DNA of 10,740 nt from Clostridiales bacterium (GTDB taxonomy: Bacteria > Bacillota > Clostridia > Tissierellales > Sedimentibacteraceae): positions 1-10,740 of the forward strand of contig DNNV01000095.1 of NCBI GenBank assembly GCA_003497505.1, written 5' to 3'. Below are positions 1-10,740 of this stretch, piece after piece. The notes under the pieces were generated by a model. That model was not told the DNA's origin and did not search any database. It saw nothing but the letters and a program-made list of their open reading frames with translations. The position numbers were made by a program, and so were the translations under genes. How positions within the stretch are numbered: position 1 is the stretch's first letter; the number at the start of each line of letters is the position of its first letter.

Positions 1-8
1 TCCGATCT
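1..8. other. Possible residual sequencing adapter at the left end
   Basis: The first eight bases, TCCGATCT, equal the 3' end of the common Illumina adapter. This suggests the window starts at a contig edge with untrimmed adapter, though eight bases can match by chance. Confidence 0.4.
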
Positions 9-27
9 ATGTTAAACATTATTAAAA

Positions 28-60
28 TAAGGCTGCAGCGAACGAATAGCTGCAGCCTTA
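28..60 (-). terminator. Rho-independent terminator of the HAD hydrolase gene
   Basis: A perfect 12-bp stem (28-39 with 49-60) encloses a 9-nt loop. Read on the minus strand, the stem is followed by TTATTTTAAT, a moderate U-tract. The TAA stop codon of the hydrolase gene forms the first three bases of the stem, so the gene ends directly in its terminator. Confidence 0.85.
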
Positions 61-708
61 TTTATGAATCAAGAGCTCGCTGAAAGACTCAATATAAAAA
101 TCGCTTATTGATTCAATGATATTTCTTTTATTCCTGTATGCTTCATCGTAAACACCCACCGTATAAAAGCCTGCTTCCTTTGCAGTTATCAGAGCAAAAT
201 CCGCATCATCAAAGACTGCAGTATCACATGCTTTCGCACCAAGTTTTTTAGCTGCAAGATAAAATACATCCGGTTTATTTTTTCCGACACCTACGTCATC
301 GCAGCTTATAATGCATGAAAAATATTTTATTATTCCATTTCTCTCCAGTGCCGCCTCGGCAAAGCTCAAAGGAGATGCTGTGGCAATGCACATATTTACG
401 CCTTCTTCACTAAGCTTTAGGAGATATTCCCTAACATATGGCTTAAGAATAAGCTCATATTTGTATCTGTCTTCAATAAGACTCTTTATTCCCCAAATAA
501 TATCCTCGTTTGATAGCTTAAAATTAAAGGCTGACCTGAAATATTCGGCAGCTTCTTCCATAGACATGGCTGCAAGTATTTCATTCAATCCACTGGGCGG
601 ATTAATTTTATTGTGCAAAAGATAGTCCATACCCAAATTGCGCCAAGCCGCCATGGAATCAAGCAACGTTCCATCCATATCAAAAATTGCATTTTTAAAT
701 TTTTTCAA
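58..708 (-). CDS. HAD-superfamily hydrolase, beta-phosphoglucomutase/phosphatase-like
   Basis: This is a 216-residue cytosolic protein of the haloacid dehalogenase superfamily (Had-IA, PgmB/CbbY/GPH type), whose members are phosphatases or phosphomutases using an aspartyl-phosphate intermediate. Motif I is FDMDGTLLDS at residues 9-18, with Asp10 as nucleophile and Asp12 as acid/base. Residues 19-90 form a helical cap. Motif II is ATAS at 109-112, motif III contains Lys145 in GKNKPD, and motif IV is VFDDADFAL at 166-173 with Asp167 and Asp168 for Mg2+. All catalytic positions are intact and the length is normal. The start is TTG at 706-708: it sits 6 nt after a GGGGGA ribosome site, and the next ATG (residue 11) would remove the nucleophile. 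The gene stands alone with its own promoter and terminator. The substrate cannot be read from the sequence; sugar phosphates or phosphoglycolate are usual for the family. Confidence 0.9.
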   Translation of the reverse strand: MKKFKNAIFDMDGTLLDSMAAWRNLGMDYLLHNKINPPSGLNEILAAMSMEEAAEYFRSAFNFKLSNEDIIWGIKSLIEDRYKYELILKPYVREYLLKLSEEGVNMCIATASPLSFAEAALERNGIIKYFSCIISCDDVGVGKNKPDVFYLAAKKLGAKACDTAVFDDADFALITAKEAGFYTVGVYDEAYRNKRNIIESISDFYIESFSELLIHK

Positions 709-713
709 TATAA

Positions 714-719
714 TCCCCC
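714..719 (-). promoter_or_regulatory. Ribosome binding site supporting a TTG start
   Basis: GGGGGA on the minus strand lies 5 nt upstream of the TTG at 706-708 and fixes this codon as the start of the HAD hydrolase. Confidence 0.65.
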
Positions 720-746
720 AATAATGTTGTTTATTTTATCTCTTTT

Positions 747-775
747 ATTATACAGCCTGACGTCAGCAATTTCAA
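747..775 (-). promoter_or_regulatory. Sigma-A promoter of the HAD hydrolase gene
   Basis: On the minus strand TTGAAA (775-770) is separated by exactly 17 bp from a perfect TATAAT (752-747). This is a strong housekeeping promoter about 40 bp upstream of the TTG start. The spacer contains a perfect 10-bp palindrome, CTGACGTCAG (757-766), which would be well placed as a repressor operator. Confidence 0.8.
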
Positions 776-878
776 GCTGAGTTCATTCCTCCACGCATTT
801 TTAGGTATATTGCTTTATTTTACAAATTATCAAACAATTTAGGATTATAAAACTGCATCAAAACTGAAATAATAACTA

Positions 879-899
879 TGAAATAAGTTTTTTATTTCA
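879..899. repeat. AT-rich inverted repeat upstream of the CAP gene
   Basis: TGAAATAA (879-886) and TTATTTCA (892-899) form an 8-bp perfect dyad with a 5-nt centre, just upstream of the ribosome site of the CAP gene. It could be a weak hairpin or an operator. I could not find a convincing promoter for the CAP gene in 800-910. Confidence 0.35.
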
Positions 900-911
900 A
901 ATTCTTCCAAG

Positions 912-918
912 AGAGGTG
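912..918 (+). promoter_or_regulatory. Ribosome binding site of the CAP gene, overlapping a GTG
   Basis: AGAGGTG is a good Shine-Dalgarno sequence. It lies 6 nt upstream of an in-frame ACG (925-927), not upstream of the in-frame GTG (916-918), which is itself part of the Shine-Dalgarno. No Shine-Dalgarno precedes the GTG. The real start is therefore probably the ACG position. Confidence 0.6.
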
Positions 919-1410
919 TTTTATACGAAAAATAAAGTTTCTTTTTTTGTATTGACCATGCTTATATCCTTATCGAGCATTTCAGCCTTTGCAGTGTCCG
1001 GAACGACTCCGACTGTAAACGCTTCTTATGAGGAAAGAGTGGTTCAGCTTGTCAATATTGAAAGGCAAAAGAACGGGCTGCCTTCTCTGCATTTAGACAG
1101 GGCAATATCTGATGTAGCCAGGACGAAATCAAAAGATATGGCTGTAAACAATTATTTCGCCCATTATTCACCAACCTACGGAATGGCCAGTGATATGCTT
1201 CTAAAATTCGGTATAACGTGGTCAACATGGGGCGAAAATATTGCTTCAGGGCAGGATACACCCGAGATTGTTGTATCAGAATGGATGCATTCACCCACAC
1301 ATAAGGCAAATATCCTTTCCCCGAATTTCACATTTATAGGTGTGGGGTATTACGTTGACTCATCGGGAACACCCTTTTGGACCCAGATGTTTACAAGCGA
1401 CGAAAAATAA
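916..1410 (+). CDS. Secreted CAP/SCP-domain protein (YkwD-like)
   Basis: This is a small exported protein of the CAP superfamily (cysteine-rich secretory proteins, antigen 5, PR-1). Bacterial members are extracellular or spore/cell-wall associated, and their biochemical role is mostly unknown. The N-terminus is a typical signal peptide: Lys/Asn, a hydrophobic stretch VSFFVLTMLISL, and a probable cleavage after AFA. The CAP domain spans roughly residues 40-160 and shows the family signatures FAHYSP, WGENIA, the SEWMHSPTHKANIL block with its conserved His and NIL, GVGYY and WTQMF near the end. The coordinates use the first canonical start, GTG 916, but the Shine-Dalgarno and the shape of the signal peptide (it would read M-K-N-K-V-S) point to initiation at 925, where the codon is ACG. 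The gene converges on the cotJ operon across a shared terminator. A spore-related role is possible from context only. Confidence 0.88.
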   Translation: MFYTKNKVSFFVLTMLISLSSISAFAVSGTTPTVNASYEERVVQLVNIERQKNGLPSLHLDRAISDVARTKSKDMAVNNYFAHYSPTYGMASDMLLKFGITWSTWGENIASGQDTPEIVVSEWMHSPTHKANILSPNFTFIGVGYYVDSSGTPFWTQMFTSDEK

Positions 1411-1419
1411 TTAAAATTG

Positions 1420-1482
1420 TTGCGGCTGACCTGCCACCATTTTTCAGAAAAACACTCTGAAAAATGGGGTTAGGGCAAGCAA
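1420..1482. repeat. Imperfect long palindrome with a perfect 12-bp core hairpin
   Basis: CCATTTTTCAGA (1437-1448) and TCTGAAAAATGG (1456-1467) form a perfect 12-bp stem with a 7-nt loop. Flanking bases continue the symmetry imperfectly out to TTGC (1420-1423) and GCAA (1479-1482). No T-run follows, and a separate terminator hairpin lies directly beside it, so this looks like a palindromic repeat element or an mRNA-end hairpin rather than a second terminator. Confidence 0.55.
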
Positions 1483-1513
1483 TAAAAACTGCGTTAAAAA
1501 CGCAGTTTTTATT
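1481..1513. terminator. Bidirectional terminator between the CAP gene and cotJC
   Basis: AATAAAAACTGCGTT (1481-1495) pairs perfectly with AACGCAGTTTTTATT (1499-1513) around a 3-nt loop. The A/T arms give a U-tract in both directions, so it can serve the plus-strand CAP gene and the minus-strand cotJ operon, whose stop codon begins at 1516. Confidence 0.9.
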
Positions 1514-2119
1514 TTATCTGTTATTCATAAACTCCGGCTTAGGCATTATGAACAGCCGAGGCTCCTGCAAGTAGTCCTGGACTTTTCTCAGTGCCTCCCC
1601 GAATCTTTGATAATGTACAACCTCCCTTTCTCTCAGAAATTTTAAAGGTTCAATTACGTCTGGGTCATCAGCCATCTGAATTAAGTACTCATACGTTCCG
1701 CGCGCCTTTTGTTCAGCGGCTAAATTTTCTGTCAAATCAACTATAGGATCTCCTTTAACTTGAAGAGCCGCTGCTGTAAACGGTGTTCCTGCCGCACTTT
1801 GAGGATATACTCCTCTTCCGTGATCCGTAAAGTATGCTCCCGCTCCCGCCTTTTCTATTTCCTCGACAGTTGCATTCTTCATAAGCTGATACACCATAGT
1901 TCCCACCATTTCAAGATGCGCCAGCTCCTCTGTTCCTATATCGCTCAATGTTGCGATTGCCTCAGGAGTAATCATTGTAAATCTCTGGCTTAAATATCTC
2001 AGTGACGCCCCCAATTCTCCGTCCGGACCGCCGTATTGAGAAATAATGAGCGTTGCCATTGCAGGGTTTGGATTTTTTATTCTTATTGGATATTGCAGTA
2101 TCTTGTCATATGACCACAT
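1514..2119 (-). CDS. cotJC: Spore coat protein CotJC, manganese-catalase family
   Basis: The 201-residue protein belongs to the ferritin-like manganese catalase family and is the CotJC component of the spore coat; clostridial homologues (CotCB, CotD) are coat catalases. The dimanganese ligand set is visible: Glu35, Glu65 and His68 in EELAHLE, Glu136 in AAEQKA, and His169 in REREVVHYQRF. These match the Glu-Glu-His-Glu-His pattern of Lactobacillus manganese catalase, so catalase activity is plausible. The ATG start at 2117-2119 follows a strong AAAGGAG site. It is the last gene of cotJABC, 15 bp after cotJB, and ends directly at the bidirectional terminator. In Bacillus the operon is transcribed by sigma-E in the mother cell; the same timing is inferred here. 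Length and order are standard for the operon. Confidence 0.95.
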   Translation of the reverse strand: MWSYDKILQYPIRIKNPNPAMATLIISQYGGPDGELGASLRYLSQRFTMITPEAIATLSDIGTEELAHLEMVGTMVYQLMKNATVEEIEKAGAGAYFTDHGRGVYPQSAAGTPFTAAALQVKGDPIVDLTENLAAEQKARGTYEYLIQMADDPDVIEPLKFLREREVVHYQRFGEALRKVQDYLQEPRLFIMPKPEFMNNR

Positions 2120-2134
2120 ATATATTCTCCTTTC

Positions 2135-2404
2135 CTAAAGCTTAAAGTTTGCATCTGGTTCCCAGGGCCACGGCTCGTCAATCCACTGCCATGGATATGG
2201 ACTGAGCGAATCATCCTGACTGATCATTCCATAGTTTTTATTATACTCATCTTTTAGCATTCTCATCTGCCTGACAAATGCATTTCTTTTTGCAATAGCA
2301 TCACGATCAGAAGGATGTGTATTGAGATATAGCTGAAGATCCTCAAGCATCATATGGACTGCTGAAATTTCTTTTCTTAATTCCATAAAATTATTATTAG
2401 CCAT
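2135..2404 (-). CDS. cotJB: Spore coat protein CotJB
   Basis: This 89-residue protein is recognisable as CotJB by its helical N-terminal half (residues 8-40, MELRKEISAVHMMLEDLQLYL), the NTHPSD turn and the aromatic C-terminal signature PYPWQWIDEPWPWE. It is a structural partner of CotJC in the inner coat or around the forespore, and has no known catalytic function. It starts at ATG 2402-2404. Its GGGAGG ribosome site lies in the 11-bp gap after the cotJA stop codon. It is the middle gene of the three-gene operon. Confidence 0.95.
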   Translation of the reverse strand: MANNNFMELRKEISAVHMMLEDLQLYLNTHPSDRDAIAKRNAFVRQMRMLKDEYNKNYGMISQDDSLSPYPWQWIDEPWPWEPDANFKL

Positions 2405-2415
2405 TTTTTCCTCCC

Positions 2416-2664
2416 TTACTGAGCCCTGTTCCTGGACTTTCCGTCATATGGGCTGTAAAGCTCGGGAAATGCCGTCCCTTTAGCCAATGCCTCCACCGGA
2501 TTGAAAAGTTCACACATAAACTGATACGGAACGTATGCTGCAGCCAGCCTTACATTTTCAATCACCATTTCCTGAGACACACAATTCGTCATATTAGGAA
2601 CATTCATGGGATTTCGCGGGTTCATTCCGTAAATGTTATCTCTTGGTCTTATATTATTTACCAT
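2416..2664 (-). CDS. cotJA: Spore coat associated protein CotJA
   Basis: The 82-residue protein carries the CotJA core: AYVPYQFMCELFNPVEALAKGTAFPELYSPY at about residues 48-78, with the hallmark GT-x-FPELY-x-PY. The N-terminal 30 residues are rich in Asn, Pro and Met and probably disordered. CotJA is needed with CotJC for coat incorporation in Bacillus and has no enzymatic motif. The ATG start at 2662-2664 follows AAGGAGGAG. This is the first gene of the operon, and its promoter must lie in the 137-bp region shared with the divergent ferritin-like gene. Confidence 0.95.
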   Translation of the reverse strand: MVNNIRPRDNIYGMNPRNPMNVPNMTNCVSQEMVIENVRLAAAYVPYQFMCELFNPVEALAKGTAFPELYSPYDGKSRNRAQ

Positions 2665-2705
2665 TTAAGGCTCCTCCTTATATTTCATTATTTTATAATA
2701 TGGAA

Positions 2706-2721
2706 AACATATTTATATGTT
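2706..2721. repeat. AACATAT-TT-ATATGTT dyad in the cotJ / ferritin-like intergenic region
   Basis: A perfect 7-bp inverted repeat with a 2-bp centre, 42 bp upstream of cotJA and 81 bp upstream of the ferritin-like gene. It is a possible operator shared by the divergent genes. No specific regulator is identified. Confidence 0.4.
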
Positions 2722-2736
2722 ACTTAACCATATGTT
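2708..2736 (+). promoter_or_regulatory. Possible sigma-E-like promoter facing the ferritin-like gene
   Basis: CATATT (2708-2713) is followed after 15 bp by CATATGTT (2729-2736), resembling sigma-E -35 (ATATT) and -10 (CATAnnnT) elements. The region is AT-rich and partly palindromic, so chance matches are likely. No equally good match was found on the minus strand for cotJA. Confidence 0.25.
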
Positions 2737-2744
2737 TATTAATG

Positions 2745-2772
2745 TTTAAAAACAGCATAATAGTGGTATAAC
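2745..2772 (+). promoter_or_regulatory. Extended -10 promoter of the ferritin-like gene
   Basis: TTTAAA (2745-2750), a 16-bp spacer, and TATAAC (2767-2772) preceded by TGG (2764-2766) make an extended -10 sigma-A promoter. It would start transcription about 23 bp before the ATG, leaving just room for the AAGGAGG ribosome site at 2790-2796. Confidence 0.55.
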
Positions 2773-2801
2773 ATTGATATATTTATAATAAGGAGGAAAA
2801 A

Positions 2802-3299
2802 ATGTACAAAGAAGAACTGTCGATAATTTCTCAGGCTATTTTAAATGAAATCGAGGGCTATGAATTTTACAGACTTGCCAGTGCCCAGGCAACTTCGGAA
2901 GGAACCAGAGGAGCTTTTACGGAACTGGCAAACGAAGAATTAAAACACGCCGATTACCTTAAGGCATTGTGGCAAAAACTCAGCGGCGGCGGTGAAATGA
3001 AGGTTGAAGATATTCTTTCGTCAGGAATCGAAATACCTTCTCCCGAAATTTACCGTTGGGATAAGGTGGATAAAACCAGTTCATCTGTTGCCATGTCTAT
3101 TTTTGGAATAGGCATGCAGATGGAGCAAAACTCTATTAAATTTTATGAGGAAGCAAAAGATAAGGTTGCATCAGAGGTGAGCAAGGCGCTGTTCGATTTA
3201 CTGATTGGCTGGGAAAGAGTACATTTGAATCAATTTGCAGAGCAATACAGCCTTTTGAAAGAGGATTGGTGGGCAGAGCAGGGGTTTGCTCCGTTTTAA
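2802..3299 (+). CDS. Ferritin-like diiron protein (rubrerythrin domain only)
   Basis: The 165-residue soluble protein is a four-helix-bundle ferritin-like protein of the rubrerythrin group. Metal ligands come in the expected repeats: Glu18 in NEIEGYEFY, Glu46 and His49 in EELKH, Glu108 in QMEQNSIKFYEEA, and Glu138 and His141 in WERVH. The C-terminal rubredoxin domain of true rubrerythrins (two CxxC pairs) is absent; instead it ends in DWWAEQGFAPF. Family members reduce peroxide or handle iron; without rubredoxin, an external electron donor would be needed. The gene has a strong AAGGAGG site, its own promoter, a terminator after it, and is divergent from cotJA, whose operon encodes another ferritin-like metal protein (CotJC). 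A role in oxidative stress or spore protection is inferred from that context. Confidence 0.88.
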   Translation: MYKEELSIISQAILNEIEGYEFYRLASAQATSEGTRGAFTELANEELKHADYLKALWQKLSGGGEMKVEDILSSGIEIPSPEIYRWDKVDKTSSSVAMSIFGIGMQMEQNSIKFYEEAKDKVASEVSKALFDLLIGWERVHLNQFAEQYSLLKEDWWAEQGFAPF

Positions 3300-3356
3300 C
3301 CTGTCGGTCATTGAAGATAATCAGTATTTAAAATAAACTTTCTATAAATAAGATCA

Positions 3357-3389
3357 ATAGGACGGATGTTAAACCAACATTCGTCCTAT
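3357..3389. terminator. Terminator between the ferritin-like gene and the nhaC-family gene
   Basis: A 14-bp stem (3357-3370 with 3376-3389, one G-U pair) with a 5-nt loop lies between two convergent genes. T-rich but broken tails occur on both sides, so it probably acts in both directions. Confidence 0.8.
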
Positions 3390-3414
3390 ATTAATACAAA
3401 TCGTTATTAAAGCC

Positions 3415-4851
3415 TTAAGCTGTTTTTTTAACCTTTTTAGCTTTTTCCATATTATCATTTTGTCCTATGCCAAGAAGTATTGTTGCAAACATTACAGCAA
3501 GCATTGCATATGCGTAGAACACATAAGGTGTGATTTCAAGAGCAGCCAGTGGTGCATTGCTGTCAGCTGCAAATCCAAGAGTGTAAATCATTGCAGGTGT
3601 CCATGGAAGGCTGTAAACAAAAGTGTTGGACTGTGCATCAAGCAAATTTGCAACTCTGTACGGGCTGATATTATGCTTCTGACCCAACGGCTTTGCAAAA
3701 GAAGCTCCAACTGCCAAGATTGCAGGAGCATTTAATCCCATTAATGCAGATAATAATATTACCATTACAGAAATTGTTATTTCTGAGCCTATTCTTGTAT
3801 CCGTAACCTTGTTCAATGCGTTTAAGAGCTTAACATCTCCTTGTCCGTTTCTCATAACCGATATCGAGCCGAACAGCAGCAATGCCAAAATACAAACCTG
3901 GATCATGCTGCTTAACCCTGATTGAATAACCCCGCCTATGGCACGATCAAGACCTGCTCCAGAAACTGTGAGCAGTGCAGGCTTAACAGCATTCACAGCG
4001 TCAATTTGAATAATATCAAACAACCCTGCGGCAACCCCGGTTACAGCTCCAACAACAGAACCTACTATTGTGGCGATAATAATATCTCCTGATTTCACGG
4101 CGACAATAATTGTTACTATAACAGGAACAAACATAACCAGCGTCGCGGGATTGTATTGAAATGCTTCAGGTGACACTCCGGCATTGGCTTTACTTGAGCC
4201 GAAGATTAAAATAGCTAAAATTGTTATAGCACCTGCTGTAAAGGCATATTTAAGCCTCGATCTTACAACACCAGGAACGTCAACCCCTTGTGAAGTAGCA
4301 GAGCATATGGTTGTGTCAGATACAGGAGCAAGATTGTCTCCAAATGCTCCTCCTGATATTATGGCACCTGCCACAATAGGAGGATATGCTCCTAATGCAA
4401 CAGCCGCGGGATAAAGAACACCCATACCTGCCGCAATAGTACCGAAGCCTGTACCAGTTGCTGTTGCAAAAACTGCTGATGCTATAAATGTTACTATAGT
4501 AAACGCAGTGCTTCCAACACCCATGTTAGCCGCTATTCCTGCTATCCCTGTTGCCAGACCTGATTCTCTCAGAATTCTTGAGAACACGCCTGCAAACAGC
4601 CAGCACACCACAGGTATGAGCGCTTCCTTGCTTGCTATACCATCAATTACAGTATTTGAATAATCCTGCTTGTTTTTAGCGAAGAAGAATCCCACAACTA
4701 TGGCCATAAACGCTGGAACCCACAGGGCACCGTCTGAAATAGACCCAAAATGGAATGTTGTAGTGATAATCAAAACCAAAAACACCAGGAACGGAACGAA
4801 TGACATCCATTCTCCGCCATAAAACTCCAATTTCTTTTCTTTTAATTCCAT
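3415..4851 (-). CDS. nhaC: NhaC-family Na+/H+ antiporter-type membrane carrier
   Basis: This is a polytopic membrane protein of about 478 residues with some eleven hydrophobic segments and the NhaC-family signature GGAFGDNLAPVSDTT at about residues 167-181. NhaC proteins exchange Na+ for H+; relatives such as MleN exchange organic acids, so the true substrate may be an organic or amino acid. The start chosen is the ATG at 4849-4851 (MELKEKK). An ATG 12 nt upstream (4861-4863) has no ribosome site, and its G begins the GGAGGA that serves the downstream ATG. The gene lies 3' of a sigma-54 response-regulator gene, is separated from it by a terminator, and has its own sigma-54 promoter. It is therefore the likely target of that regulator. 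The symbol reflects the family, not a tested function. Confidence 0.9.
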   Translation of the reverse strand: MELKEKKLEFYGGEWMSFVPFLVFLVLIITTTFHFGSISDGALWVPAFMAIVVGFFFAKNKQDYSNTVIDGIASKEALIPVVCWLFAGVFSRILRESGLATGIAGIAANMGVGSTAFTIVTFIASAVFATATGTGFGTIAAGMGVLYPAAVALGAYPPIVAGAIISGGAFGDNLAPVSDTTICSATSQGVDVPGVVRSRLKYAFTAGAITILAILIFGSSKANAGVSPEAFQYNPATLVMFVPVIVTIIVAVKSGDIIIATIVGSVVGAVTGVAAGLFDIIQIDAVNAVKPALLTVSGAGLDRAIGGVIQSGLSSMIQVCILALLLFGSISVMRNGQGDVKLLNALNKVTDTRIGSEITISVMVILLSALMGLNAPAILAVGASFAKPLGQKHNISPYRVANLLDAQSNTFVYSLPWTPAMIYTLGFAADSNAPLAALEITPYVFYAYAMLAVMFATILLGIGQNDNMEKAKKVKKTA

Positions 4852-4855
4852 AATT

Positions 4856-4861
4856 TCCTCC
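4856..4861 (-). promoter_or_regulatory. Ribosome binding site that decides the nhaC-family start
   Basis: GGAGGA on the minus strand ends 4 nt before the ATG at 4851-4849. It overlaps the alternative upstream ATG (4863-4861), which has only AT-rich sequence before it. Confidence 0.7.
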
Positions 4862-4888
4862 ATGAATAATATAGTTCATTTATATATG

Positions 4889-4905
4889 AGCAAATTTCAT
4901 GCCAA
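4889..4905 (-). promoter_or_regulatory. Sigma-54 (-24/-12) promoter of the nhaC-family gene
   Basis: The minus strand reads TTGGCATGAAATTTGCT from 4905 to 4889. It matches the sigma-54 consensus TTGGCAC-N5-TTGCT at all but one base, with the obligatory GG (4903-4902) and GC (4891-4890) at the exact 10-bp internal spacing. The predicted transcription start is near 4878, giving a leader of about 27 nt that contains the ribosome site. The gene immediately upstream encodes a GAFTGA-containing sigma-54 activator. Confidence 0.85.
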
Positions 4906-4930
4906 GAAAATTGAAGCAAAAACACTACAA

Positions 4931-4940
4931 TTCAATTGAA
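4931..4940. promoter_or_regulatory. TTCAATTGAA palindrome upstream of the sigma-54 promoter
   Basis: A perfect 10-bp palindrome centred about 32 bp upstream of the -24 GG. It could be a binding site for the regulator or an architectural protein. It is AT-rich and could be chance. Confidence 0.3.
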
Positions 4941-4950
4941 AATATAAAAA

Positions 4951-4995
4951 ACTGCCTGGAATTAATTTTCACATGGAAATATTTTTCCCGGCAGT
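4951..4995 (-). terminator. Terminator of the GNAT-BFD-kinase-regulator operon
   Basis: On the minus strand ACTGCC (4995-4990) pairs with GGCAGT (4956-4951), extended inward past one mismatch by GGAA/TTCC, and is followed by a T-run (4950 downward). It begins just after the response-regulator stop codon and separates the operon from the sigma-54 promoter. Confidence 0.75.
4957..4989. promoter_or_regulatory. Candidate activator sites: two TGGAA...TTTTC half-dyads
   Basis: Two similar units, TGGAATTAATTTTC (4957-4970) and TGGAAATATTTTTCC (4974-4988), repeat at 17-bp spacing. The second contains the dyad GGAAA-N4-TTTCC. They lie 65-100 bp upstream of the -12 element, the usual place for sigma-54 activator sites, and also form the loop of the terminator. 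The assignment is inference. Confidence 0.35.
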
Positions 4996-5002
4996 CTTTT
5001 TC

Positions 5003-6364
5003 CTATTTCAAATCATATTCGATAATCTTGTTGAATACTTGTCTCCTGCTTATATCCATAATTTTGGCGGCATGGGTGATATTATTATTGCAGCTTTTCA
5101 AAACCTTACTTATATACTCAATCTCAAAATTTCTTTTTGCATCCTTGTAGCTTGTCATGATTTCAGATAGTTGTTCGTCGTTCCTAACGCTGTTTTCACA
5201 TTTAACACTGTTAAATATACTTCCCTTTAATACGCTTCCTCCTGAAAGAACAACCATTCTTTCTATTATATTTTTTAGCTCTCTTATATTTCCCGGATAG
5301 CTGTAATTCAGAAGCTGCTGCATTGTATCGCCGTCGATCTCTTTAATGCCTTTCCCCATTTCTTTATTAAACCTGTTTACAAAAAAGTAAATCAAGTCCT
5401 CTATATCTTCCTTTCTGCTCCTCAGAGGAGGAATTTTTATTTCAATGGTGTTTATCCTGAAGAATAAATCTTCACGAAATTTCCCCTCAGAAACAGCTTT
5501 CGCCAGATTCTTGTTCGTGGCTGAAACCAACCTGAAATCAACATCAATGAGCTTGTTGGAGCCAATCCTCTCTATCTGCTTTGTTTCAAGAACCCTGAGA
5601 AGCTTCACCTGGGTGGCCTCCTCCATATCTCCTATTTCATCCAAGAAAACAGTTCCTCTGTCAGCTTCTTCGAGATGACCGACCCTTGTTGAAGTTGCGC
5701 CTGTAAATGCCCCTTTTTCGTGTCCGAAAAGCTCAGACTCTATGAGTCCTGACGAGTAATAACCGCAGTTTATCGGTATAAACGGCATATTTGACCTATC
5801 GCTGCTGTCGTGTATCATGTGAGCTATTATTTCCTTGCCTACACCTGATTCACCTGTAATTAAGGCGGTAGAGCTGCTTTCGGCAACGCGCCTTACAACT
5901 TCGTACACCTTTTGCATCTCTTTATTTTTGCTGGTGTACAAATATCTGCCTTTCTTGCTGTTCCTGTTGAACTCATTAATACTGCGCAAAGAAAAAATCT
6001 TATGCACCTTTTCTATTTCAAGGATAAGCTCCTCAGGATTATGGCTTTTGATGAAATATCCGAATGCTCCTATTTTCATGGATTGAACTGCAGTCTCAAT
6101 GCTGCCGTATCCGGTAACCATTATTATTTCAATATCCTTATTATACTTATCCTTTATTTCTCTAAGGAACTCTACTCCGCTTATTCCCGGCATCATAATG
6201 TCGCTGATTATCAAAGGATAGCACTCCACATCAAGCAGCTTGTATGCTTCCTCTGCTGAAGCTGCTGTCTCAATCCTGTATCCTTTACTTGTGAGAAGCA
6301 TCCTGTATGTTTCCCTATAGTCTGCATCATCATCAACTATCAAAATCTTAAATAAACCCGTCAC
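5003..6364 (-). CDS. NtrC-family sigma-54-dependent response regulator
   Basis: The 453-residue protein has the full NtrC layout. The receiver domain (residues 5-120) has acidic Asp11/Asp12, phospho-acceptor Asp55 in SDIMMPG, Thr84 and Lys106. The AAA+ domain (about 145-375) has Walker A GESGVGKE at 171-178, the sigma-54-contacting GAFTGA loop at 218-223, Walker B with Asp242-Glu243, and arginines in FREDLFFR. A Fis-type helix-turn-helix occupies 425-451. All key residues are intact, so it should hydrolyse ATP and open sigma-54 promoters when phosphorylated. The start is GTG 6364-6362: an in-frame stop lies just upstream and an AGAGG site 10 nt before. It overlaps the kinase gene by 17 bp, showing coupled synthesis with its partner. 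The visible target is the sigma-54 promoter at 4889-4905. Confidence 0.96.
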   Translation of the reverse strand: MTGLFKILIVDDDADYRETYRMLLTSKGYRIETAASAEEAYKLLDVECYPLIISDIMMPGISGVEFLREIKDKYNKDIEIIMVTGYGSIETAVQSMKIGAFGYFIKSHNPEELILEIEKVHKIFSLRSINEFNRNSKKGRYLYTSKNKEMQKVYEVVRRVAESSSTALITGESGVGKEIIAHMIHDSSDRSNMPFIPINCGYYSSGLIESELFGHEKGAFTGATSTRVGHLEEADRGTVFLDEIGDMEEATQVKLLRVLETKQIERIGSNKLIDVDFRLVSATNKNLAKAVSEGKFREDLFFRINTIEIKIPPLRSRKEDIEDLIYFFVNRFNKEMGKGIKEIDGDTMQQLLNYSYPGNIRELKNIIERMVVLSGGSVLKGSIFNSVKCENSVRNDEQLSEIMTSYKDAKRNFEIEYISKVLKSCNNNITHAAKIMDISRRQVFNKIIEYDLK

Positions 6365-8345
6365 TCACACTCTTCCTCTCTAAGGGCAGTCTTATGACAA
6401 ATTCGGTGCCTTCACCCAATCTGCTGTTCACTTCTATTTTCCCCCTTAATTTCTCAACCTCCGAATACACAATGAAAAGGCCCAGTCCCGTGCCCTTGCC
6501 TAGCTCCTTTGTCGTGAAAAACGGATTGAATATATCGCCCAAATACTTTTCATCTATTCCGGTACCGCTGTCTTTACAGATTATAGTCAATACCTCATTT
6601 TCAATATAAATACTTATGTTTACTTCTCCATCATAATCAATTGCATCTATTGAATTTGAAAGCAGATTTAATATTATATGTTCAACGCTTTCGGCATTAA
6701 TAAATATTTCCTGTCTTATGCTGCTGTTGACAGTAATCTTTATGTTCTTTTTCTTAATTATGTCATTATGAATCTCAATAAGCTTCGAAATAACCTGATT
6801 CATATCGACAGCATTTGTTGAATTGCTTGACAGTCTTGAAAAATTCAGTATATTATCTATAATCTTGCTCGCCCTCTCCACTGCAGTATCTATGAAATCC
6901 AGAGACTTACGAGCTGCTTCATCTGCTTTATCATTAATTCTCACAAGGTAGCTTTGAGTGCGTATTATCCCAAGTGGGTTTCTTATTTCGTGTGCCATTC
7001 CGGCGGCAAGCTGACCAACCGCAATCATTTTATTGCTTTGAAGCATCTGGTTTCTGTTTATTTTATCCATGGTTATATTCTTTATGGATACAAGCACCGT
7101 CATGCTTGTTCCCTCAAGGTTCTGAAAATTTATTTCGTACACCTCATTGCCGACGGATGTTTCCTTTTTTATGTCATGGCCGCATGCTAAAGCATCATTG
7201 AGCATGCAGTCACTGCAGTCGTGACAAAATTTGCCCAGGTAGTCTGAGCAATTGCTTCCATCAACTGAATTCTTTAAAATCCCGAGATAATCAGCAAAGC
7301 TCTTATTAATTTTTAAGACATTTTTATTATAGTCAGCCACAAGCATAAATTCCGATATGCCGTCAAATATTATCTGCAGCTCATTTCTGCTGTTCTCCAG
7401 CTCTCCTGTTCTTTTCCTCACCTGCTGCTGTAAAGAAAAATTATTCAGCAAAACAAGGGCAAATATACAGCTTGCTATCAAAGCTGTCACAACCACACTT
7501 TCAACTATATCATCCCTGCTTTTGCTGTCAAGGAGCGGAGTTGAAATTCCGAACCACTTCTGCTGTATCTTTTCAAGCTGTCCTTTTCCGTTTATCTGCC
7601 TTATTGCCTTATTCAAAATAGGAACAAGCTCCGGTCTGTTTTTTGAGACTCCCAGCACAACTTCTTTTTGGTACAATATTATATTTGAATACCGTGGATC
7701 GTTGTTAGCGTTTCTTTCAACAAGCAAATATGTGATAATAGGTTCATCACCAATTACCGCATCCACCTCACCTTTTAAGAAAAGCTCAAAACCGTCTTCC
7801 ACATTGCCTGTGTAAACGAGCTTTGCACCGGGATAATTTTCAGACAAATATCCATTGGCATAATCTCCTCTTTCTGTTGCAATAGTCATGTTGTTGATGT
7901 TAATTAGGTTAGAGCTTTGGGATGACTGTGTCATCAGCACTGTTCTCAGATTGTATATAGGCTCAGTGAATAAGTAATACTTCGCTCTTTCATCGCTTAT
8001 GAACATATCACATATTTGTGTAGTACCTTCCTTCAATGCACTCAATGCTTCATCCCACTTCATGGGTACAGTCTGAATATCAACTCCCAGCTCCAGTGAC
8101 AATTGATTTATATAGTCAACCACCACTCCTTTATATTGGTTGTCTATATTATCCACGAACCTGAGAGGAGGTGCATTTTCATTTGCAGCATATACTATGA
8201 CATCCTGCCTCTTAAGCCACATTTTCTCATCGCTGCTTAAATGCTTATCATTTCTGTCGTAAAAATAAAATAATGTGATACACATTGCAATCAGTACCGT
8301 GAATATTATTGTTTTTTTATTTTTTGTGTATGCTTTGAAATTCAT
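6348..8345 (-). CDS. Membrane sensor histidine kinase with SBP_bac_3 and cysteine-rich PAS domains
   Basis: Domains of this 665-residue kinase in order: transmembrane helix 1 (about 12-29); an extracellular solute-binding family 3 domain (about 45-268); transmembrane helix 2 (about 283-303); a short coiled coil; a PAS domain (about 322-425) with five cysteines at 366, 374, 377, 380 and 388; a HisKA domain with His452 in AHEIRNPLG; and an ATPase domain with Asn560/Asn564 (N box), DSGTGI at 592-597 and GKGTGLGL at 617-624. In the binding domain, Arg120 (SDERAKYY) and Asp200 (AVIGDEP) sit where amino-acid-binding proteins such as GlnH hold the ligand carboxylate and amino groups, so an amino-acid ligand is inferred. 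Its start overlaps the stop of the [2Fe-2S] gene (ATGA) and its end overlaps the response regulator, its evident partner. Confidence 0.95.
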   Translation of the reverse strand: MNFKAYTKNKKTIIFTVLIAMCITLFYFYDRNDKHLSSDEKMWLKRQDVIVYAANENAPPLRFVDNIDNQYKGVVVDYINQLSLELGVDIQTVPMKWDEALSALKEGTTQICDMFISDERAKYYLFTEPIYNLRTVLMTQSSQSSNLININNMTIATERGDYANGYLSENYPGAKLVYTGNVEDGFELFLKGEVDAVIGDEPIITYLLVERNANNDPRYSNIILYQKEVVLGVSKNRPELVPILNKAIRQINGKGQLEKIQQKWFGISTPLLDSKSRDDIVESVVVTALIASCIFALVLLNNFSLQQQVRKRTGELENSRNELQIIFDGISEFMLVADYNKNVLKINKSFADYLGILKNSVDGSNCSDYLGKFCHDCSDCMLNDALACGHDIKKETSVGNEVYEINFQNLEGTSMTVLVSIKNITMDKINRNQMLQSNKMIAVGQLAAGMAHEIRNPLGIIRTQSYLVRINDKADEAARKSLDFIDTAVERASKIIDNILNFSRLSSNSTNAVDMNQVISKLIEIHNDIIKKKNIKITVNSSIRQEIFINAESVEHIILNLLSNSIDAIDYDGEVNISIYIENEVLTIICKDSGTGIDEKYLGDIFNPFFTTKELGKGTGLGLFIVYSEVEKLRGKIEVNSRLGEGTEFVIRLPLERKSVSDGFI

Positions 8346-8551
8346 ATACTTTCTTCTAAAAGCTTAAGGATTTTTTCAGTGCATCTTTTCCCGCCGCATG
8401 GGCCGCTTCCTGCCCCCGTTGCTTTCTGAACCTCAGGCAATGTTGTCGCACCATTTGCTATTGCTTTTTTAATAGTTGCTCTTGATATTCCCTTACACAA
8501 GCATATCTTCGTCATCTTATCCATTATTTCCGCATGTTTATCCTGATCCAT
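8342..8551 (-). CDS. BFD-like [2Fe-2S] ferredoxin-domain protein
   Basis: A 69-residue protein consisting of little more than one Fer2_BFD domain. Four cysteines, Cys17 and Cys19 (CLC), then Cys52 and Cys57 (GPCGGKRC), follow C-x-C-x32-C-x4-C. The C-x4-C spacing resembles the BFD-like domains of amino-acid and amine dehydrogenase subunits (GMGPCQGRxC) more than bacterioferritin-associated ferredoxin, which has CxxC. The domain binds a [2Fe-2S] cluster and normally passes electrons or docks to a partner. The ATG at 8551-8549 lies 1 bp after the acetyltransferase stop, using AGGAGA inside that gene's last codons. Its TGA overlaps the kinase ATG, so the protein is made together with the sensor. 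A redox role in the signalling system is possible but not shown; no oxidoreductase gene is present nearby. Confidence 0.88.
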   Translation of the reverse strand: MDQDKHAEIMDKMTKICLCKGISRATIKKAIANGATTLPEVQKATGAGSGPCGGKRCTEKILKLLEESI

Positions 8552-8552
8552 C

Positions 8553-9434
8553 TTATCTCCTCATCATATAGTAGCTCATTACATTTTCATCTTCAAATCC
8601 GCATGATTTGTACAAATTAAGAGCATTTTCGTTATCTGTATCCACCTGAAGGATAACCCTATCAGCGCCCATTTCAATGAGCTTTTCAACCGACCACATG
8701 AGCAGTTCCCTTCCGTATCCCCTTCCTCTGTACTCAGAAAGTACACCAAGACCGTATATTCCTCCCGTACCATCATTTAATTCTATCCGCACACTTCCTA
8801 CGTTCCCATTATCAGCTTCTGCAATAAAAGTTCTCCCATTGACAATATTATCCACAAGTGCTGTGTCGCCTTCCTTTATAATAATTCCAAAAAAATCATA
8901 ATTCATTTCCGCTATTATCTTGGCGTCACTTTCAGCAGCCATGCGTATATTCAGAGAGCGCGGACACTTCTGTGGAAACAGCTCTCTGTTCAGAACCATA
9001 TCATATTCGGAATGGTGGTATTTTTGAGAAAATTTCTCAATGAAGCTAATGCCGGAGTGAGATTTATTGTCACAGAGCAGAAGTATTTCATCACTCTTTC
9101 TTTTTTTACATTCATCCTGAACCAAAGCAAATATCTGTGTGAAAATCCCCCTGCTCCTGTATGCAGGGTGAACCATTCCTGTGATTTCCAAATTATCACC
9201 GCCGAAATTGCTGATATTTATATACCCTGCAAGCTCGTTTTCCACATAATACATGAATTCATTGAGCTCAGTCTCTCGTTTACTAATCTTCCCCGCATTT
9301 TCCAGCCTGTAATCCAGTTCTAACTTAAAAGATAGGCTGTCATATTCGGCACATGTTCTTTCTAAATTTTTCAATGCGTCATAGTCATTTTTATCAATAC
9401 AGCTCTTTAGTACGATTTTTGAATTTCTTATCAT
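8553..9434 (-). CDS. Tandem GNAT-family N-acetyltransferase
   Basis: The 293-residue cytosolic protein contains two GNAT folds. The first (about residues 35-150) has a degraded acetyl-CoA loop, VHPAYRSRGIFTQI at 88-101. The second (about 162-293) has a canonical loop, VLSEYRGRGYGRELL at 231-245 with the RGRGYG core, followed by the typical NxxALNLYKSCGF motif at 268-280. The C-terminal domain is probably the active one; the N-terminal domain may bind substrate, as in other two-domain GNATs such as mycothiol synthase. The acceptor is unknown. It is the first gene of the four-gene signalling operon, and its last codons carry the ribosome site of the next gene. The ATG at 9434-9432 is the only usable start before an in-frame stop. 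Its Shine-Dalgarno is weak (GAGGGG 14 nt upstream). Confidence 0.9.
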   Translation of the reverse strand: MIRNSKIVLKSCIDKNDYDALKNLERTCAEYDSLSFKLELDYRLENAGKISKRETELNEFMYYVENELAGYINISNFGGDNLEITGMVHPAYRSRGIFTQIFALVQDECKKRKSDEILLLCDNKSHSGISFIEKFSQKYHHSEYDMVLNRELFPQKCPRSLNIRMAAESDAKIIAEMNYDFFGIIIKEGDTALVDNIVNGRTFIAEADNGNVGSVRIELNDGTGGIYGLGVLSEYRGRGYGRELLMWSVEKLIEMGADRVILQVDTDNENALNLYKSCGFEDENVMSYYMMRR

Positions 9435-9478
9435 ATTATTTTGCTCAACCCCTCAACTGTAAATTTTTATCAAATTCA

Positions 9479-9508
9479 ATTATAATATAGGGCAATAAAA
9501 TTTACCAT
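9479..9508 (-). promoter_or_regulatory. Possible sigma-A promoter of the signalling operon
   Basis: A perfect TATAAT lies on the minus strand at 9484-9479, about 45 bp upstream of the acetyltransferase start. The -35 region at 17-bp spacing (TGGTAA) is poor, so an activator or a different start may be used. Confidence 0.35.
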
Positions 9509-9532
9509 TACATTTTGAGTTAATTTCAAAAG

Positions 9533-9558
9533 CAGAGGGCTCATATTTAAGCCCTCTG
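9533..9558 (-). terminator. Terminator of the polysaccharide deacetylase gene
   Basis: CAGAGGGCT (9533-9541) pairs with AGCCCTCTG (9550-9558) around an 8-nt loop. On the minus strand the stem is followed by CTTTTG. It begins just after the deacetylase stop codon. Confidence 0.8.
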
Positions 9559-9562
9559 ATAA

Positions 9563-10675
9563 TTATTCGTATATATTTATTTTTCTGTCTCCAACCATAT
9601 CCATGTTCAGATGTTTTTCATGCCTCTTCGGAATTGTAACAACATCCGGATTTCCGTCACTTATGAATCTTTCTCTTTTATTGTTTTCATATGACCTGAA
9701 GTAATCATACATTCCACAGTTATCAACGTTTATCTCGCTTGCCGTAACTCTGTAGAGGCTTGTAAAATTAGTCAATATGTCGAAAGGTGAATAATCAGGT
9801 CTCCAGCCAACATCAAGAACGGCTATGTTCTTATATCCATTTCCTTCATATTCTCCCTGGAGGATACTTTGCAAAAACTCATCCTTTGGATTGCTTCCAT
9901 GAGGAAGAGCCAATGTTTCCACCGTGTAATCTGGCAAAGATTTCTTGATTATATTATTCACAGAGCCTATTTCTACTATAATTTCCTTATTAGTAAGTGT
10001 TGCAAGCTCATAGTGACTGTATGTGTGATTTCCTACATCATATCCGTTTTTAACAAGCCAGTTAAGCTTCTTTTCCGCATATTCTTCCTGACCGAAGGCA
10101 CTTGAATTTAGAAAAAAGCTCGCCGTAACATCGAAATCAGGATATTTCTCCTTAAATTCCTCTAATATTCCAACTGCACAGTCAGGATCAATAACAAGCT
10201 CGCCGTTTTTCTCAATATAATTGAAATTATTTTGTCTTCCGTCGTCAAAGGTTAAAATTATTGGAGTGTATCCTGCTCTTGTCTTTATTTCTCCCTTTGC
10301 GTAATCATTCAAGCTTATCATTTGATATTTATTGTCATACATATACTGCAGGTCACTGCGGAAATTATCGTAGTTGCGCTGCCACACCGACTCCTCTTTT
10401 CCGATGCCGTGGTACATGAGAATCATTATTTCACCTAATTCATTTGGCTCCAACGACAGGTCAATGGAAGCAACAGGGTCTGTTTCTTCATCTGTCCCCT
10501 CCTCTTCCTTTTGTTCCTGTTCACTTTTGCCTTCTTCCTTATCTTGCTGGTTTGCCTCGACAGCATTTTCATCTGTGTTATCAGGAACCTCAGGAACATT
10601 TTCTTTTTCTCTTCCGCATCCCGCCAAAATCAGGAGCAGTACTATTAGTGCAATTATAAAGCTCTTTTTCTTCAT
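9563..10675 (-). CDS. Lipoprotein with NodB-type polysaccharide deacetylase domain
   Basis: The 370-residue protein has a lipoprotein signal (residues 1-20, lipobox LAGC with Cys20), then a highly acidic Glu/Asp/Gln-rich linker (about 23-67), then a carbohydrate esterase 4 / NodB domain. Catalytic motif 1 is TFDDG at 142-146 (Asp144, Asp145), and motif 2 is HTYSH with His217 and His221 for the metal. Motif 3 (RxPYG in most members) is replaced by LALPHGS at 256-261, lacking the usual Arg-Pro-Tyr. Family enzymes remove N-acetyl groups from peptidoglycan, chitin or exopolysaccharide on the cell surface. The long insert after motif 1 and the variant motif 3 make the substrate uncertain. The ATG start at 10675-10673 has AGGGG 6 nt upstream. 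It is monocistronic here, with its own terminator. Confidence 0.9.
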   Translation of the reverse strand: MKKKSFIIALIVLLLILAGCGREKENVPEVPDNTDENAVEANQQDKEEGKSEQEQKEEEGTDEETDPVASIDLSLEPNELGEIMILMYHGIGKEESVWQRNYDNFRSDLQYMYDNKYQMISLNDYAKGEIKTRAGYTPIILTFDDGRQNNFNYIEKNGELVIDPDCAVGILEEFKEKYPDFDVTASFFLNSSAFGQEEYAEKKLNWLVKNGYDVGNHTYSHYELATLTNKEIIVEIGSVNNIIKKSLPDYTVETLALPHGSNPKDEFLQSILQGEYEGNGYKNIAVLDVGWRPDYSPFDILTNFTSLYRVTASEINVDNCGMYDYFRSYENNKRERFISDGNPDVVTIPKRHEKHLNMDMVGDRKINIYE

Positions 10676-10699
10676 TTTTAACCCCTAAAATTTTTCTTA

Positions 10700-10740
10700 T
10701 ACTAATTCGCATTAAATATTTCCCTTGAAGCGAATTAGTA
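10700..10740. repeat. 11-bp inverted repeat at the right edge
   Basis: TACTAATTCGC (10700-10710) and GCGAATTAGTA (10730-10740) form a perfect inverted repeat with a 19-nt centre, and the second arm ends exactly at the last base. Without further sequence it cannot be told whether it is an operator for the deacetylase gene, a terminator of a neighbouring gene or part of a longer repeat. Confidence 0.6.

Follow-up and report, generated by a model that had tools for sequence, protein, structure and literature searches.

A putative sigma-54-dependent cassette of sensor kinase, regulator and NhaC-family carrier linked to the ornithine route in clostridia

The window analysed here is a stretch of 10,740 nucleotides from a Clostridiales bacterium (assembly GCA_003497505.1, contig DNNV01000095.1, positions 1 to 10,740), whose minus strand encodes a membrane sensor kinase, an NtrC-type response regulator and a carrier of the NhaC family. 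The protein domains, a -24/-12 promoter, a tandem palindrome, the gene order and, in relatives, the linkage to ortA and ortB were all read from the sequence, and they suggest that the unit is probably a DctBD-like, sigma-54-dependent transport circuit, whose carrier would move an amino acid for the ornithine/2-amino-4-oxopentanoate (AKP) route. From 5' to 3' the strand carries genes for a GNAT protein, a BFD-like protein, the kinase with its SBP_bac_3 domain and the regulator, followed by a hairpin, the sigma-54 site and the carrier gene. The features of the core are as follows, with domains assigned by Pfam on open reading frames (ORFs).

3415..4863, minus strand: PF03553 (NhaC-family) carrier, 482 amino acids (ORF and Pfam), with a predicted IT-superfamily type fold
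4889..4905, minus strand: sigma-54 -24/-12 promoter TTGGCATGAAATTTGCT, 25 bp upstream of the carrier ATG
4938..5010, minus strand: hairpin and T-run, predicted by folding to be the intrinsic terminator of the regulator gene, with the palindrome within the stem-loop
4958..4988, minus strand: tandem palindrome GGAAAAATATTTCC-ATG-TGAAAATTAATTCC, probable upstream activating sequence (enhancer) for the regulator, lying 52 bp upstream of the -24 box
5003..6364, minus strand: NtrC/AtoC-type response regulator with receiver, AAA+ domain with GAFTGA, and Fis-type helix-turn-helix; GTG start (ORF and Pfam)
6348..8345, minus strand: membrane sensor histidine kinase with extracellular SBP_bac_3 domain, weak PAS-like match, HisKA and HATPase_c
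7548..8195, minus strand: extracellular SBP_bac_3 sensor domain, kinase residues 51-266 (Pfam and structure model)

From these features we infer that a phosphorelay operates, that the regulator binds the palindrome and that the carrier transports an amino acid, as well as the kind of solute. An amino-acid-type solute outside the cell would bind the Venus-flytrap domain of the kinase, which would phosphorylate the NtrC-type regulator; the regulator would bind the tandem palindrome upstream of the -24 box and activate sigma-54 polymerase at the promoter of the carrier gene. An amino acid moved by the carrier would then feed the AKP thiolase OrtAB, the final step of oxidative ornithine degradation, which is encoded elsewhere in the organism's own genome and within the cassette in many relatives. 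That the switch of these relatives often lies beside an ornithine-breakdown enzyme hints at the purpose of the carrier.

Kinase, regulator and promoter

The kinase matches SBP_bac_3 (7e-28), HisKA and HATPase_c, and the model of its sensor domain has a predicted local distance difference test score (pLDDT) of 89 and a predicted template modelling score (pTM) of 0.85. His 452 of the HisKA domain is invariant in all 29 kinases aligned. The sensor domain has the invariant residues Asp 113, Arg 120, Asp 200 and Glu 201; Arg 120 and Asp 200, kept in 29 of 29, form the Arg/Asp pair of an amino-acid-binding SBP_bac_3 domain and stand at what we take to be the LAO/GlnH positions that hold the alpha-carboxylate (Arg) and the alpha-amino group (Asp). 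When the sensor domain was compared with solved sequences, BvgS was the top row and EvgS the sixth; in both, as in the window kinase, SBP_bac_3 domains are fused to a kinase. BvgS and EvgS are hybrid kinases with tandem domains and regulators that are not sigma-54-dependent, whereas the window kinase has one such domain and an enhancer-binding protein (EBP) as its partner. The PAS-like region carries a C-x7-C-x2-C-x2-C cluster (kinase residues 366-380, window 7206-7250), whose four cysteines are all kept in eight of the 27 kinases having the region (the window, L028-L033 and L039) and partially in others; it may be a metal or redox site.

The regulator matches Response_reg, Sigma54_activat (2.5e-67) and HTH_8 and is, with its GAFTGA loop, an EBP of the NtrC/AtoC type. 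Its frame overlaps that of the kinase by 17 bases, so that the SBP_bac_3 kinase and overlapping GAFTGA regulator described in the initial annotation are borne out by ORFs and Pfam alike. Among the 28 regulators of the family the loop reads GAFTGA in 20, GSFTGA in four and GAYTGA in two, and it is absent from the remaining two, that of L048 (gene in two pieces) and that of L055 (receiver only). The L055 case (7899-9939, Acetoanaerobium pronyense) sets a family kinase beside a receiver-only protein, and the divided gene of L048 (9859-11105) adjoins an AGCS carrier gene.

The site TTGGCATGAAATTTGCT lies where a near-consensus sigma-54 promoter had been proposed, and scores 25.0 of a maximum of 26.5 with weights made for this analysis, above all 40 dinucleotide shuffles of its 300-bp upstream region (maximum 20.0). 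Its 16-base core is the sole exact match among the two window matches at up to two mismatches; since 3.5 such matches are expected by chance, it is position and conservation that constitute the real evidence for the site. Upstream of the carrier, GG and GC at fixed spacing are conserved: a site scoring at least 21.5 of 26.5 precedes the carrier in 21 of 22 loci, the window included, and in the 22nd (L054) the site lies ahead of ortA, the carrier gene closing an ortA-ortB-nhaC operon. The best site beats all 40 dinucleotide shuffles of its own upstream region in 29 of 32 promoters. Conservation of this site in relatives, on which the initial annotation had staked its sigma-54 reading, thus held up.

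The same is true of the gene order. A kinase scan of genome contigs gave 30 loci, of which 28 belong to the family (L056 and L057 do not), and the carrier lies near the kinase and regulator in 21 of the 28, including loci of Sedimentibacter, Anaerovorax, Lachnospiraceae, Anaerotignum, Caloramator, Lutispora, Thermosediminibacter, Anaeromonas, Anaerosalibacter and Peptoclostridium. Three of the seven loci without this carrier nearby (L036, L041 and L045) stop at or soon after the regulator. In a set of 41 whole genomes (the organism's own, 24 of the genus and 16 of the order) the carrier is present at an identity of at least 48% in 12, always on the contig of the kinase and with space for one gene between them. 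Locus (L) and genome (G) numbers overlap (L028/G007, L029/G014, L032/G022, L047/G037, and L048 = L160/G019), and counts are not summed. The window lies on contig C24 of an assembly of 2.54 Mb that is 75% complete; by kinase comparison the nearest named relatives of the source genome are Sedimentibacter genomes.

The terminator predicted after the regulator is found as a hairpin of -21 kcal/mol (z -4.38), which a simple terminator scan did not list. Within it, between regulator and promoter, the pattern GGAAA-N4-TTTCC occurs twice. This tandem palindrome is likely the regulator's enhancer, judging from its position: among the promoters scored, the eight of Sedimentibacter type (the window, L028-L032, L110 and L118) place it 52-54 bp from the -24 box, and in 26 of 32 promoters it scores above the shuffles made from that promoter, a post hoc comparison in that the consensus was derived from the same loci. 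In L039 both the ortA operon and the detached nhaC gene have a copy of their own along with a -24/-12-like site; the copy at nhaC, with 16 of 20, no more than equals its best shuffle. It is very unlikely that the palindrome is conserved only as part of the regulator's terminator, as its place in a hairpin with a T-run after the regulator (found in the window and, by eye, also for many relatives) might suggest, since it precedes the target, nhaC in L039 and L040 and ortA in L054, at a place away from the regulator 3' end, stands ahead of a separate, second hairpin in L043 and L053, and keeps its distance to the -24 box.

The palindrome was also sought at fixed spacing and with up to two mismatches in 25 genomes (the organism's own, 15 of the genus and nine of the order). 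It has one place each in G000 (the own genome), G003, G006, G007 and G013, located each time in the interval that separates regulator and carrier, and 4958-4988 is its sole place in the own, incomplete genome. Lone two-mismatch matches occur elsewhere in G008, G031 and G032, and a reversed-pattern control gave one match across the 25 genomes. As proof of a single target the search was rejected: it covered one spacing only, missed the sites of G014 and G032 and could not find the related boxes of the paralogues.

These paralogues place the window unit in a wider group. The 41 genomes hold 28 kinase matches, of which 12 are carrier cassettes, nine others are readable, four are cut by contig ends (L115, L117, L123 and L158) and three were outside the reading (G003:C37, G014:C4:195404 and G019:C30). 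Eight readable paralogous pairs (kinase identity about 35-41%) face a carrier together with a -24/-12 site; the carrier is of the AGCS family in L153, L155, L159 and L160 and weakly NhaC-like, by BLAST only, in L154, L156, L157 and, as two genes, in L124; the pair of L109 faces ortA-ortB-APC. Related boxes precede several of the targets, with a spacing of 21 bp in L154, L156, L157 and a single L124 promoter, of 22 bp in L109 and of 24 bp in L159; none were found in L153, L155 and L160. In L124 (10443-14062; also L161) the two weakly NhaC-like genes are consecutive and each has a -24/-12-like site downstream of the one kinase/regulator pair. By these sequence relationships, the window unit is one member of a family of cassettes with differing carriers. 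The initial description of the circuit as self-contained has to be qualified, as ortA-ortB often forms part of the cassette and paralogues with related boxes occur in the genus.

The two genes upstream of the kinase are neighbours in close relatives only and do not widen the circuit:

8342..8551, minus strand: BFD-like [2Fe-2S] protein (Fer2_BFD), 69 amino acids, outside the conserved core
8553..9434, minus strand: tandem GNAT acetyltransferase, a neighbour in close relatives

As circuit members both were rejected, the GNAT gene being found only in L029-L032, L117 and L122 and the BFD gene only in L030-L032; neither is present in L028 or L033. A SIR2-like gene, recognised by eye, lies between GNAT and kinase in L029, L030, L031, L032, L117 and L122. 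The window has no such gene, and there the BFD frame overlaps that of the kinase directly by four bases (8342-8345). Elsewhere in the window (1514-2664) a Mn_catalase-family protein is accompanied by two small proteins, presumably related to those of CotJ spore-coat genes.

Linkage to ortA-ortB

Of 29 loci including the window, 16 have ortA or ortA-ortB in the cassette, six do not, and seven (L030, L036, L038, L041, L045, L051 and L055) could not be decided, so that the linkage holds in 16 of the 22 long enough to tell. The four OrtA and three OrtB proteins of relatives that were tested all score above the NCBIfam equivalog cut-offs (NF040739 and NF040741), and are predicted on this basis to form the enzyme described as 2-amino-4-ketopentanoate thiolase, which yields acetyl-CoA (PMC8803604). 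An OrtB match is present in 19 of 20 named carrier genomes (in G043 as fragments at contig ends only), and in the twentieth, G041 (L028), the start of ortA follows the carrier where the contig ends. In two cases, L044 and G009 (L109), kinase, regulator, ortA and ortB are joined by an APC-like permease with no such carrier, and in L048 and L051 an AGCS carrier replaces that of the NhaC family.

In the OrtB tree 15 of 18 cassette copies (with L107 and L121) fall on one side of a 99/92 branch; on the other side are all 18 copies from ornithine operons together with the cassette copies of L032, L110 and L054. This split indicates that ortAB entered the cassette, or was replaced there, on more than one occasion, and so speaks for a carried solute that meets AKP thiolase, with AKP and ornithine not told apart. 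The carrier as a plain part of the canonical ornithine operon was considered and rejected, as no relative occurs around 16 fetched operons (L125-L140; the C. difficile-type operon was outside this comparison).

Several assemblies end in or beside ortAB (G003:C13 and C5, G018, and G007:C2 (L120)), and OrtB is missing or fragmentary there; such breaks are as expected of near-identical duplicate copies. The genus has another operon joining an AGCS carrier with ortA-ortB (L105 2100-8877; also L106 and L119), ahead of which L105 has a -24/-12 site as well as genes resembling those of an aminotransferase and an EBP. It is possibly a second, differently regulated AKP route.

The carrier and its solute

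The carrier matches PF03553 at 1.6e-17, over the gathering score, and reaches 77.6 bits against a cut-off of 370 for the NhaC equivalog TIGR00931. Its assignment to NhaC thus stands at the level of the family, where the initial annotation had placed it, and does not extend to the equivalog. A sequence search of the PDB gave no match at E up to 1, and the predicted fold is nearest to MleN, NaS1, NaDC3, ArsB and TRAP carriers, a likeness that by itself shows no function. APC-like or AGCS carriers occupy its place in some relatives and paralogues, and these replacements, with the invariant Arg 120 and Asp 200 of the sensor, make the earlier suggestion of an amino-acid carrier, not a housekeeping antiporter, well supported at the level of sequence. 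Ornithine and AKP are sub-cases of this circuit as far as the solute is concerned.

Ornithine, or an arginine/ornithine exchange, is a possible if tentative choice, in which the solute would be sensed and imported for the whole oxidative pathway. The own genome has ord-ord-ortA-ortB on C165, together with oraS-oraE (the OraS and OraE labels being recognised by eye, with no model). The named genomes of 25 of the 28 family loci (not L030, L036 and L041) were examined, with matches accepted at E up to 1e-50 for OraE and 1e-30 for Ord; OraE is present in 18 of these 25 kinase-bearing genomes and Ord above cut-off in 17. The additional invariant acidic residues Asp 113 and Glu 201 of the sensor also speak for ornithine, as do an NhaC-family protein of Halobacterium reported to be an arginine/ornithine exchanger (PMC5300872) and the prediction by Nie et al. 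of nhaC as an arginine/ornithine transporter (PMC6615313). Against it, OraE and Ord are both missing from six of the 25 genomes (L034, L035, L044, L045, L052 and L054), with neither found in Peptoclostridium litorale, no carrier relative was found at E 1e-5 within several kb around the 16 oraE operons, and in paralogous cassettes the corresponding position is taken by AGCS carriers. To our knowledge AGCS carriers are not established for cationic amino acids.

AKP itself, taken up from the surroundings and cleaved by OrtAB, is a solute to be proposed with reserve. In the cassettes no part of the pathway other than ortAB was seen, five of the six genomes that lack OraE and Ord keep exactly one OrtB, at the cassette coordinates, and both the repeated recruitment or replacement of ortAB and the APC-like and AGCS carriers fit this choice. 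However, the open literature searched yielded no account of AKP serving as a nutrient outside the cell, of the six genomes without the pathway five are drafts assembled from metagenomes (that of L054 is an isolate), and AKP could come from another enzyme.

AKP thiolase also gives alanine, and AGCS is an alanine/glycine carrier family. AGCS carriers at the place of the carrier in other cassettes, and beside ortAB in L105, L106 and L119, would suit a carrier that exports or exchanges this product while the amino acid of the ornithine route enters through another. We consider this unlikely, as the outward-facing sensor would then report the product and not the substrate, and the AGCS cassettes L153, L155 and L159 have no adjoining ortAB. 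Less probable still is that the carrier serves ion or pH homeostasis as a Na+/H+ antiporter, being induced alongside amino-acid fermentation as a side function: the family name and the haloarchaeal NhaC-family antiporters described (PMC10342064) agree with it, whereas the low equivalog score, the clustering with ortAB, the exchange for amino-acid-type carriers and, for what a fold can say, the nearest folds do not.

Several observations weigh against the amino-acid transport circuit that we favour. A sigma-54 gene was not found in searches of the 75% complete own assembly with either of two domains. Most likely it was lost with the missing quarter, sigma-54 being present in all 24 congeneric genomes searched and in 39 of the 41 whole genomes (the exceptions are the own assembly and G027), and the own genome having 27 Sigma54_activat matches. 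The -24/-12 sites of L043, L044 and L053 do not beat their shuffles, nor do the palindromes of six promoters (L033, L039 nhaC, L040 ortA, L047, L048 and L049), and the palindrome was scored on the loci that had supplied its consensus; with the two sites missed, the genome search found it in five of the seven searched genomes with the unit. In the sensor pocket, Ser or Thr is absent from the position that we take to be Ser 72 of LAO, with Phe in 27 of 29 kinases, Tyr in one and His in one; this Phe, together with BvgS as the top solved sequence, means that an alpha-amino-acid ligand is not certain. The genes ortAB are not beside the carrier in the window, L029, L033, L037 and L050, nor beside the AGCS carrier in L048, whose genome (G058), with kinase and AGCS, has no OrtB whatsoever. 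The L045 genome (G055) likewise has no OrtB, its contig stopping about 0.9 kb past the regulator, and the APC-like protein of L044 does not reach the cut-off of any of the transporter models listed.

Known systems and implications

The unit has the parts of a DctBD-type system: a sensor kinase for an external ligand, an EBP partner and an adjacent transporter under a -24/-12 promoter. DctB-DctD-DctA, MifS-MifR and AauS-AauR, which are two-component systems for sigma-54-dependent transport in Pseudomonas and other bacteria, likewise combine a membrane kinase for an external solute with an NtrC-type regulator and a -24/-12 transporter promoter (PMC7962211). The present cassette differs from DctBD in occurring in clostridia, in its NhaC-family, APC-like or AGCS carriers and in often including OrtAB. 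A further difference is the SBP_bac_3 sensor input, in place of the DctB-type input domain. For the OrdR system, sigma-54 and EBP control of nhaC together with ortAB was predicted; there the target is the whole ornithine operon, while cassettes of the present type have ortAB at most, the likeness of nhaC is by name, and about 10% of the EBPs in that survey carry receiver domains (PMC6615313). An NhaC protein with a tyrosine T-box, LysW with a lysine riboswitch and the Halobacterium exchanger are of the same family and are assigned to amino acids; their genes are controlled by RNA leaders or lie in arc clusters, as opposed to a sigma-54 two-component cassette, the likeness being at the family level (PMC2494555, PMC5584792, PMC5300872).

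NhaC-family amino-acid carriers and a predicted sigma-54 control of nhaC in ornithine operons are thus already published. In the open literature searched we found no cassette of SBP kinase and response regulator linked to ortAB, no such enhancer and no lone ortAB beside it, and nothing on point for AKP thiolase with a two-component system or for AKP as a free metabolite; the excerpt of PMC12316311 mentions neither an antiporter nor Sedimentibacter. What appears to be new is the putative tandem-palindrome enhancer, the linkage of the cassette to ortA-ortB with a lone OrtB, and the paralogous pairs facing other carriers.

A bolder proposal, for which the odds are rather poor, is that widespread clostridial cassettes treat external AKP as a nutrient, which the SBP kinase would sense, the NhaC-family carrier import and OrtAB convert to acetyl-CoA and alanine. 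If true, AKP leaked by ornithine fermenters would be a cross-fed amino acid, and the genomes without the pathway would live on its last step alone. More generally, the analysis suggests a concrete function for one transporter annotated as "Na+/H+ antiporter NhaC" in anaerobes with the ornithine pathway, and it points to a modular sigma-54 sensor/carrier cassette, repeated as paralogues, in which natural carrier swaps may hint at the molecule that is sensed.

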